This document shows positions 33,797 to 36,008 of a stretch of 64,000 nt of DNA, piece by piece (the first letter of the stretch is position 1; every line of letters starts with the position of its first letter). This DNA comes from Lactobacillus sp. MRS-253-APC-2B. Lineage in GTDB: Bacteria; Bacillota; Bacilli; Lactobacillales; Lactobacillaceae. The position numbers were made by a program, and so were the translations under genes. The notes under the pieces are model-generated. The model made no database searches, was not told where the DNA came from, and was given only the letters and a program-made list of their open reading frames with translations. The stretch spans positions 248,001-312,000 of the forward strand of contig NZ_JABAFO010000001.1 of NCBI RefSeq assembly GCF_012843675.1. Reading direction: 5' to 3'.

Positions 33797-33950
33797 GAAT
33801 TTCACCTCCTGCGATGTATTTTGATCGGATTTAAAAAAATCCCTATGACCGGCAGACATAGAGAAGGAACATTTCATTTCTTCCTCGGCAGGCATTCATT
33901 AAGGCTTACGCCACCTGAGTCTTAGGCAGAGTCATATTTAATCAACTTTG
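33797..33950 (-). ncRNA. L10 (rplJ) ribosomal-protein leader
   Basis: The 5' UTR of rplJ shows the paired and bulged layout of the Firmicute L10 leader: GACTCTGCCTAAGACTCAGG, GGCGTAAGCC, and a long hairpin CCTTCTCTATG...CATAGGG before the SD. The L10-L12 complex binds it to repress its own operon. It was recognised by position and structure; I did not align it to the family. Confidence 0.8.
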
Positions 33951-34016: not shown

Positions 34017-34045
34017 TTGCGTTTAATTTTTTCTCATGTTATTGT
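34017..34045 (+). promoter_or_regulatory. Promoter of the permease attenuator transcript
   Basis: -35 TTGCGT (34017-34022) and -10 TATTGT (34040-34045) have a 17-nt spacer. The start would fall near 34052, about 35 nt ahead of the leader-peptide ATG. The hexamers are only moderate matches. Confidence 0.5.
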
Positions 34046-34085
34046 AAGAATCGTAAAATTTTCCAGCGTCTGGAGGAGCGATTTA

Positions 34086-34139
34086 ATGACTCTGCATTAT
34101 TTCAAACTTCATCAATCTTCATCCTCAGCTTCAATCTGA
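34086..34139 (+). CDS. Serine-rich leader peptide of a transcription attenuator
   Basis: This 17-codon frame, MTLHYFKLHQSSSSASI, starts at ATG 34086-34088 with a strong SD GGAGG (34072-34076, 9 nt away). Codons 11-14 and 16 are serine (TCT TCA TCC TCA, then TCA at 34131-34133). It is followed by alternative stems and a terminator ahead of a permease resembling serine/threonine exchangers. I see no other reason for such a frame to have a strong SD. Role as a sensor of charged tRNA-Ser is inferred from layout, analogous to trp/his leaders. Confidence 0.75.
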   Translation: MTLHYFKLHQSSSSASI

Positions 34140-34237
34140 AAGCAGTTGAGGATCTTTGACGCGCTCAAATTACCAGCGACACCGAGCATGCCCGACTGCT
34201 TTTGAACCTTCTTGGCAGTTGGACGGCTCGGTTTTTT
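34121..34237 (+). promoter_or_regulatory. Attenuator: alternative stems and terminator upstream of the permease
   Basis: Four segments can pair as in trp-type attenuators. 1:2 pairs 34121-34133 (over the Ser codons) with 34137-34153 (ATCCTCA/TGAGGAT and GCTTCA/TGAAAGC). 2:3 pairs AGCAGTTG (34141-34148) with CGACTGCT (34193-34200). 3:4 is the terminator: ACCGAGC (34181-34187) with GCTCGGT (34226-34232), extended by CGACTGC with GCAGTTG, then TTTTTT to 34237. A ribosome paused on the Ser codons would free segment 2 and prevent the terminator. Confidence 0.7.
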
Positions 34238-34265
34238 GTTGGACTAATGAATGGAGGAAATTCCT

Positions 34266-35594
34266 ATGGAAAAACAGCCGCAAACAGAGCTTAAACGCTC
34301 GTTAGGCTTCGGTTCGGCGCTTTCAATCGTAATTGGTACCATCATCGGCTCCGGTATCTTTTTTAAGCAAGGTTCAGTCCTGGACAGTGCAGGATCTTCA
34401 ACCATGGCCATTCTCGCCTGGGTTCTGGGTGGTATCATCACGCTGACGGCTGGCTTGACGATTGCTGAGATTGGCTCACAAATGCCATATACCGGTGGTC
34501 TGTATGTCTATATCGAAAACCTTTATGGACGCATTTGGGGCTTTTTAGCTGGCTGGATGCAGATCATTGTCTATGGTCCCGCAATTATTGCCTCAGTTGC
34601 CGGCTTTATGAGCATTCTGATGGCCAACCTTTTTGGGCTTAGTGCTGCCTGGCGCATTCCGTTGGCTGTAATCACAATCCTAGCCATTGGTGCCATGAAC
34701 ATGCTGGAAAATCGCGTTGGTGCGGCATTTTCCGTGATCACTACGATTGGAAAAATGGTGCCAATTGCCGCTATTATCATCTTTGGTCTATTCTGGGGCC
34801 ACCAAGATGCTTTTGGCCAAACGCTCAGTCAGGTTCATCAATCGGCCGGAAATTTTGGTGTTGCTATCTTAGCAACCTTGTTCGGTTATGATGGCTGGAT
34901 TTTGATTGCCAACTTGGGCGGTGAGATGAAAAATCCCCAAAAACTGCTGCCAAAAGCGATCATCCTGGGAATCAGTGCGGTTTTGCTAATCTATACTTTG
35001 ATTACAATTGGCGTTTTACGCTTTTTGCCAGTTCAAACGATTCATCGGCTCGGCGAAAATACCACTGCCTATCTTGCCGTCAAAGCATTCGGTACGATTG
35101 GCGGCAAGCTCTTATCTGCCGGTATCATTATTTCAATGATGGGAACGATCAACGGTAAGATGCTGACGTTCCCAAGAATCGTCTATGCAATGGCCAAACG
35201 ACGTGATATTCCATTTTCACGTACGCTTTCCTATCTAACGCCAAAAGGTAAGTCGCCGGTAGCAGCAACTTTGTTTATCATTATTTTGGCTACAATCATG
35301 ATGATGTTCTTTGATCCAGATCATTTATCCGATTTGTGCGTCTTCACCGTTTATTGTTTTTACATTCTGGCGTTCTTTGGTATCTTTATTCTGCGCAAGA
35401 CCAATGAAGCACCACGACCATTTTCCACCCCACTTTACCCATGGATTCCGATTATTGCCATTGCTGGTGGCATCTTCGTTTTGGTCAGCGAAATCATCAA
35501 TGATCCGGCCGGCGTAATGCTTTTTGCCGGTGTCGTGATTATCGGCTTGCCAGTCTTTTGGATCGTCAAAAAGCTCGACCAGCCAGCAAAATAG
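34266..35594 (+). CDS. APC-family amino acid permease, SteT-like serine/threonine exchanger
   Basis: This 442-residue, 12-segment membrane protein has SALSIVIGTIIGSGIFFKQG in the first helix (the substrate-binding GSG) and LFGYDGWILIANLGGEMKNP, typical of the LAT-like branch that includes B. subtilis SteT. ATG 34266 has GGAGG 8 nt upstream; a longer start at 34251 would overlap that site. It lies alone on the plus strand between divergent and convergent ribosomal operons. The Ser-rich leader upstream supports Ser as substrate, but substrate is inferred. Confidence 0.85.
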   Translation: MEKQPQTELKRSLGFGSALSIVIGTIIGSGIFFKQGSVLDSAGSSTMAILAWVLGGIITLTAGLTIAEIGSQMPYTGGLYVYIENLYGRIWGFLAGWMQIIVYGPAIIASVAGFMSILMANLFGLSAAWRIPLAVITILAIGAMNMLENRVGAAFSVITTIGKMVPIAAIIIFGLFWGHQDAFGQTLSQVHQSAGNFGVAILATLFGYDGWILIANLGGEMKNPQKLLPKAIILGISAVLLIYTLITIGVLRFLPVQTIHRLGENTTAYLAVKAFGTIGGKLLSAGIIISMMGTINGKMLTFPRIVYAMAKRRDIPFSRTLSYLTPKGKSPVAATLFIIILATIMMMFFDPDHLSDLCVFTVYCFYILAFFGIFILRKTNEAPRPFSTPLYPWIPIIAIAGGIFVLVSEIINDPAGVMLFAGVVIIGLPVFWIVKKLDQPAK

Positions 35595-35787: not shown

Positions 35788-36008
35788 CTAAATTCACTGC
35801 CCATCGGTATCAGCTCCATTCATTTGACCATGCGACGAGGCTATTTTGTTACTGCGCGAATCATCTTAACCATTAGGCATCACCTCAGATCTTCATCCAA
35901 AGCGTCTAGTTAAATTCACTGCCCATCGGTATCAGCCCCATTCATTTGACCATGCAACGAAGCTATTTTATTACTGCTCGAATCATCTTAACCATTAGGC
36001 ATCACCTC
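35788..36008 (-). repeat. Tandem duplication of a ~100-bp unit, each with an SD and a 10-codon frame
   Basis: Two copies, 35788-35886 and 35910-36008, are offset by exactly 122 bp and differ at only a few positions. On the minus strand each holds GAGGTG, 7 nt, then ATGGTTAAGATGATTCG, encoding MVKMIRAVIK (copy at 35910-36008) or MVKMIRAVTK (copy at 35788-35886). A second conserved frame ending MNGADTDGQ is broken upstream by TAA in both. No known gene is recognised. It lies downstream of the promoter at 36037-36064. Confidence 0.75.

Follow-up and report, generated by a model that had tools for sequence, protein, structure and literature searches.

What controls the amino acid permease gene that begins at position 34266 of the stretch of DNA analysed here (64,000 nucleotides of Lactobacillus sp. 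MRS-253-APC-2B, hereafter the window)? Its leader sits between the gene and a divergent ribosomal protein L10 (rplJ) leader (33825-33944, minus strand), which adjoins it upstream. We conclude, with a probability of about 90%, that the element acts as a ribosome-mediated transcription attenuator, sensing charged tRNA-Ser, upstream of a BasC-like permease. Computation found a leader frame with a Shine-Dalgarno sequence (SD), a codon run tied to the gene, an intrinsic terminator, three alternative helices (with 2:3 exclusive) that are conserved and compensated among relatives, and folds in which ribosome position decides the outcome. The parts are as follows.

34017..34045, plus strand: probable promoter, called by eye (TTGCGT, 17-base spacer, extended -10 TG-T-TATTGT)
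34066..34070, plus strand: 5' arm of outer stem P0 (GCGTC), just 5' of the SD; partner 34158-34162
34072-34077, plus strand: SD of the leader frame (GGAGGA)
34086..34139, plus strand: leader peptide frame MTLHYFKLHQSSSSASI, 17 codons (ATG 34086, TGA 34137-34139)
34116..34133, plus strand: regulatory Ser codons TCT TCA TCC TCA (GCT) TCA, five Ser in six positions
34121..34133, plus strand: segment 1, the 1:2 partner of 34137-34153
34137..34153, plus strand: segment 2, beginning at the stop codon
34158..34162, plus strand: 3' arm of P0 (GACGC), from single folds
34181..34203, plus strand: segment 3 (terminator 5' arm 34181-34200; antiterminator part 34193-34203, pairing with 34138-34148)
34214..34237, plus strand: segment 4 and U run, the 3' side of the intrinsic terminator (pairing arm 34214-34232, TTTTTT 34232-34237)
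34253..34258, plus strand: SD of the permease gene
34266..35594, plus strand: regulated gene, APC/LAT-type amino acid permease, BasC-like, 442 aa

Coordinates were re-checked and agree with those of the initial annotation for the SD, the 17-residue frame and the five Ser codons. Its 1:2 helix (34121-34133/34137-34153) was present in our folds, as was its terminator with TTTTTT (3:4, here 34181-34200/34214-34232); its 2:3 helix (34141-34148/34193-34200) was recovered and lengthened to 11 pairs (34138-34148/34193-34203) in a fold with the ribosome on the Ser run. None of 200 shuffles was as stable as the leader (34050-34240; z = -3.5) or as the terminator region (34178-34240; z = -5.5). The promoter site was absent from the list returned by a consensus promoter scan; TATTCTAA stands at its position in many relatives. 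P0 is described from single folds (the helix search for it was too loose to count), in which other species pair GUACAC:GUGUAC, GUACAG:CUGUAC, ACACC:GGUGU and similar.

The permease matches Pfam AA_permease_2 (182.6 bits). It shares 97% identity with its counterpart in Limosilactobacillus mucosae DSM 13345 (L041), which marks the window as DNA of a relative of that species, and has 6f2g as its nearest solved relative (E 1.3e-86). That structure is BasC (PMC6472337), a bacterial LAT like SteT that has been described as exchanging alanine, serine and cysteine. By homology the protein belongs to the LAT-type exchangers, with BasC, a relative of SteT, as its closest solved structure; the earlier label "SteT-like" was fair in kind and is refined here. 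A Ser-run leader agrees with the substrates of BasC (Ala-Ser-Cys). Downstream (3') of the gene lies a tandem repeat (35789-36008; 122-base unit, 1.8 copies, 94% matches).

Permease relatives were drawn from a one-genome-per-species collection (63 loci, 62 testable, L071 being without upstream DNA) and scanned by script for an upstream ATG frame of 10 to 40 codons with at least three Ser in six. The script matched 38 of 64 sequences, window included; L070 (three scattered Ser, no run) was rejected by hand. A Ser-run leader built like that of the window thus stands before the gene at 36 of the 63 related loci (62 testable), making 37 leaders with the window, all of which have an SD for the leader frame and an intrinsic terminator (fold and U run) between leader and gene. 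The initial annotation had staked its reading on conservation in relatives: all of these 36 loci preserve the frame, the Ser codons and compensated stems, and by the script and its Ser-run criterion the leader is absent from 26 testable ones (L070 counted). Leaderless loci comprise six of Limosilactobacillus type (L026, L033, L035, L036, L037 and L039), all six of Paucilactobacillus and those of more distant genera; the Ser leader is not universal among permease relatives. On a permease tree (62 sequences, L042 left out) leader presence needs 2 changes, compared with a mean of 20 with shuffled labels. The permeases of L. jensenii and L. psittaci, both with the leader, group with those of L. 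coleohominis and L. caecicola (99/96), a placement suggesting that the permease and its switch moved together between genera. Permease relatives on plasmids amounted to seven distant matches (<60% identity).

Leaders are 17 to 25 aa long; the N-terminal residues and the C-terminus vary, and the codon run and RNA pairing stay. Ser codons in the 37 leaders are UCN in 208 of 232 cases and AGY in 24, with a UCN share of 393/640 elsewhere (Ser codons in 26 long frames of the window). UCN codons, not AGY, are reported to collect ribosomes during serine starvation of Bacillus subtilis (PMC3862929). Serine auxotrophy was considered as a reason for the switch and is unsupported: serC is present, and the genome may make serine.

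Compensatory stem changes, for which the initial annotation had proposed an alignment, were found in both alternative helices. For 1:2, 23 of the 37 leaders were aligned (model R2, structure set by hand), and the helix paired in 93.6% of cells, with both-side changes at 4 of 9 pairs (12 cells). Observed values were reached in 0/500 shuffles for cells paired, both-side-changed cells and covariation score, and in 146/500 and 154/500 for the numbers of pairs and pair types, respectively. RNAalifold, run on a first, poorer alignment (Lactobacillus rows misaligned), returned no base pair. For 2:3, the pairing of every segment 2 was evaluated with each species' segment 3, own versus permuted: own partners averaged -17.5 kcal/mol and permuted ones -14.5 (0/20,000 permutations; 35 distinct but related rows), and 12 hand-picked representatives, one per helix class, gave -18.5 versus -13.3 kcal/mol (0/50,000). 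Taken singly, 25 of 35 sequences were better than shuffled segment 3 at the 5% level and 10 were not. The helix class of the window pairs AAAGCAGUUG with CGACUGCUUU, that of reuteri and vaginalis types GCUGAGUGAUU with AAUCAUUUGGC, and that of coleohominis types GUGGUUGG with UCAACCAC. Judged by these comparisons, the leader helices are under selection.

In silico folding with segments masked, as also proposed initially, bore out the ribosome logic: ribosome position decides 2:3 in the transcript up to segment 3. A footprint of our choice (the A-site codon, 9 nt after and 15 nt before) was held unpaired. In transcripts ending with segment 3, 2:3 formed in 33/37 leaders with the ribosome on the second run codon, in 32/37 on the third and in 0/37 at the stop codon; with no ribosome, 2:3 was scored in 23/37 and 1:2 in 27/37, the thresholds overlapping. 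In full-length folds 3:4 prevails in every ribosome state (36-37 of 37), so antitermination must be kinetic. Kinetic working is a feature of classical attenuators.

The mechanism put forward initially, attenuation on shortage of charged tRNA-Ser, is the best supported, and from the above we infer leader translation, stalling, read-through and Ser import. A ribosome would be translating the 17-codon frame as RNA polymerase moves on through the leader. If Ser-tRNA is plentiful, that ribosome would reach the stop codon and cover segments 1 and 2, whereupon 3:4 would pair and transcription would end at the U run. With Ser-tRNA short it would stall on the UCN codons, covering segment 1; segment 2 would then pair with the newly emerging segment 3, the terminator would be too late to form and the BasC-like permease gene would be transcribed. 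A transcript without a ribosome would form 1:2 and 3:4 and terminate.

Model R2 (23 Ser leaders only), run over 396 Lactobacillaceae genomes, matched 42 places in 33 genomes, of which 25 are Ser leaders before a BasC-like gene, 3 are false and 14 belong to another attenuator with a Thr run. All 25 Ser places were opened and have both Ser leader and BasC-like gene (the window's own is included, and many are of the same species). Matches L117, L118 and L120 and the own-genome L123 were rejected as having no such leader and permease. The Thr-run leaders (TSTSTTTT, NTTTTSTT) precede a different permease, most like ThrP, a threonine/serine transporter. The genome of the window has one as well:

G000:C7:27834-27926 (L122, L180): Thr attenuator with leader MLIRQLKMHMIQLTSTSTTTI, before a ThrP-like permease gene

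L122 is a weak match to R2 (E 0.3) and a strong one to model R3 (5e-10), which was built from 15 Thr leaders with L122 among them. The best family of its permease is ThrP (NCBIfam NF047867; 563.8 bits, curated cut-off 850); by this score the gene is ThrP-like only, the cut-off not being reached. R3 matched 56 places in 52 genomes, of which 53 were opened (the other three coincide with opened R2 Ser places): 43 are Thr leaders before a ThrP-like gene (the 15 of the model included) in six genera (g1, g5, g8, g13, g18 and g22), 3 are Ser leaders, 1 is mixed (L217) and 6 are false (L206, L212, L215, L218, L219 and L220, without such a leader and permease). In L217 (G365:C7, another genus) a BasC-like permease of 48% identity follows leader MNNQLTLNTITSRSTIFIIG, a hairpin and a terminator, and this leader is possibly a mixed or early form. 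Outside the family, in a sample of 395 genomes of the order (family members included in the sample), all 11 matches were false (R2: L197, L198 and L238; R3: L228-L232 and L234-L236), several being ordinary terminators.

All 43 Thr leaders have a terminator. In folds to segment 3, 2:3 formed in 39/43 and 42/43 with the ribosome on the run, in 8/43 at the stop codon and in 24/43 without a ribosome; full-length folds had 3:4 in 43/43, and matching of 2:3 to its own partner was reached in 0/20,000 permutations (related rows). By these features the element of the window is one of a Ser/Thr attenuator pair within a wider Lactobacillaceae family, and this pair, which goes beyond the initial annotation, is the larger result.

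Ser codons outnumber Thr codons in 35 of 37 leaders of the BasC-like permease, and Thr codons outnumber Ser in 42 of 43 leaders of the ThrP-like permease; the leaders of L040 and L044 (two species) are mixed, with more Thr than Ser before a Ser-type permease. When leaders were put in register on the segment 1 TCA codon (an anchor missing from 2 of the 43 Thr leaders), Ser leaders had S at positions -3, -1 and +2 in 33/37, 32/37 and 33/37, and Thr leaders had T there in 40/41, 41/41 and 39/41. The leaders of L031 (Ser; TCC TCT TCC TCA ACC TCA TCA TCT CTG ATC GTG GTT GAG) and L169 (Thr; ACC TCC ACC TCA ACC ACA ACA ACA TTC ATC GTG GTT GAG) differ chiefly in TCN versus ACN, most pairing codons being unchanged. 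Which amino acid a leader senses has probably shifted through codon swaps within one scaffold. Thr leaders are spread more widely, which suggests that theirs is the older form and gives the presumed direction of change; convergence of Ser and Thr leaders onto one scaffold is a conceivable alternative.

The codon run is also complementary to the leader's own SD region, with mean pairing of -9.1 kcal/mol in Ser leaders and -10.6 kcal/mol in Thr leaders. This exceeds the average synonymous version (codon weights from the frames of the window) by a mean z of -1.4 (Ser) and -1.6 (Thr), reaching the 5% level in only 15 of 37 Ser and 15 of 41 Thr leaders. The fold of L122 joins GGAGGUAGCUGA to UCAGCUAACCUCC in a strong helix from SD to codon run. 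These values suggest that the pairing may lower re-initiation after the first ribosome. We lean, by a modest degree, towards a fuller account in which the element is a portable Lactobacillaceae attenuator cassette: an older Thr attenuator of the ThrP-like permease (verified in six genera) would have been copied to the BasC-like permease and, by ACN to UCN changes in register with paired codons kept, become a serine sensor, with half-converted forms still alive (L040, L044, perhaps L217) and with regulatory codons that also hide their own SD and could allow only one sensing ribosome per transcript.

The same complementarity, present in Ser and Thr leaders alike, would also be expected if the Ser run were a by-product of RNA pairing, that is, a pyrimidine-rich stretch that hides the SD, forms segment 1 and reads serine by chance. 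Against this, Ser is kept with other nucleotides (the 24 AGY codons; the run TCA TCT AGC TCA AGT TCC in L042) and also in the hairpin loop, and the same scaffold with the same complementarity carries a Thr run before the other permease; we hold a by-product to be very improbable. The four-segment logic would, to judge from the folds, answer any stall on the run, and a leader that senses slow translation generally (antibiotic or stress, like erm/msr-type leaders) would look similar in that respect, but one amino acid dominates the run and tracks permease type in 77 of 80 leaders, and the downstream genes are permeases, not resistance genes, which makes such a general sensor less probable still.

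T-box-like leaders stand in place of the leader peptide before a related permease in L065-L068 (Fructilactobacillus and Lactobacillus sp. S2-2; two such matches each in L066 and L068), so this gene apparently can come under tRNA control, and a tRNA- or ligand-binding leader (T-box or riboswitch) with no need of translation might be supposed in the window too. These matches score 44-57 bits (E 8e-7 or less; Rfam gathering score 93), with none at the gathering score in the three of the four loci scanned; the specifier, read by eye, is ACC (Thr) in L065 and L067 and GCC-like, unsure, in L066 and L068. The T-box covariance model did not match the leader of the window, L020 or L122, and all 4227 models of Rfam release 15, run against L001, L020 and L122, left the leaders unmatched up to an E of 1; that scan's two matches are the rplJ leader and a chance match behind the permease. 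With no Rfam family on the leader, and with SD and codon run conserved, an RNA of this kind is scarcely credible here. The conserved frame and SD would equally suit a functional peptide whose terminator merely ends a small transcript, but the N-terminus, length (17-25 aa) and C-terminus vary while codon run and pairing are kept, and 2:3 pairing would lack a role; we rate this just as low.

Attenuation by a ribosome that reads Ser codons, our preferred reading, has close models. In classical trp, his and thr attenuators of Proteobacteria the regulatory codons lie over segment 1 and the stop codon by segment 2, 2:3 is the antiterminator and 3:4 the terminator. The leader of the window shares codon placement, stop position, 2:3 and 3:4 with them; unlike them, it senses Ser, controls a permease instead of a biosynthetic operon, belongs to Lactobacillaceae, and has the outer stem P0 and codons complementary to its own SD region. 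Attenuator specificities named in PMC3766115 are His, Leu, Thr and Trp, plus Ile/Val and Phe, a list without Ser; a Cys leader before cysS is described in PMC8632094. Among Firmicutes, Listeria Rli60 and the Staphylococcus aureus ilv-leu leader are described as ribosome-mediated attenuators with experimental support (PMC5864092, PMC5794164); as described there, they have branched-chain codons and biosynthesis operons, whereas the leader of the window has Ser and a permease. His leaders with three to five consecutive His codons have been predicted in Firmicutes whose relatives use a T-box (PMC2965389, PMC9413887); as reported, these differ in reading His and in occurring in bacilli such as the B. 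cereus group, in Erysipelotrichaceae and in Peptostreptococcaceae, not in Lactobacillaceae. According to PMC2494555, a Thr-specific T-box precedes the ykbA/steT ortholog of the Bacillus cereus group. That T-box and the T-box-like leaders of Fructilactobacillus put the same transporter family under tRNA-charging control, as far as described, but differ from the window in being tRNA-binding RNA with no leader peptide and a Thr specifier. The sinR UCN sensor of B. subtilis shares ribosome slowing at UCN as a signal of serine starvation and differs, as described, in having no leader RNA switch and acting on the protein yield of its own gene (PMC3862929).

Neither a serine attenuator nor a lactobacillar Thr attenuator was found in the open-access literature as available to us. 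As far as that literature shows, Ser specificity appears to be new to ribosome-mediated attenuation, and it was apparently re-specified by codon swaps. If this is true, serine joins the amino acids read by leader-peptide attenuation, and such attenuation reaches transporter genes in a family where T-boxes abound (PMC3766115 counts 291 of them across 15 Lactobacillaceae genomes). There would then be a natural series (Thr, mixed, Ser) of one RNA scaffold changing the signal it reads, exchanging codons in food-grade bacteria would allow a direct test of specificity change in RNA sensors, and leader codons, like T-box specifiers, would hint at the substrates of two permease families.

Sequence pattern TCNTCNTCNTCN was tried as an own-genome leader search and rejected as too unspecific (194 matches, both strands). 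Among the 22 APC permeases of the genome, a Ser- or Thr-run leader stands before only 2 in the upstream stretches scanned, and a wider upstream look at six of the permease genes found no Ser or Thr run. An Rfam scan of 20 of the 22 loci returned one T-box motif and one lysine riboswitch; the APC permease genes with these signs are L142 (T-box motif) and L134 (lysine riboswitch). Going by these matches, the APC transporters of a single genome seem to be served by three or more kinds of RNA that sense amino acids.
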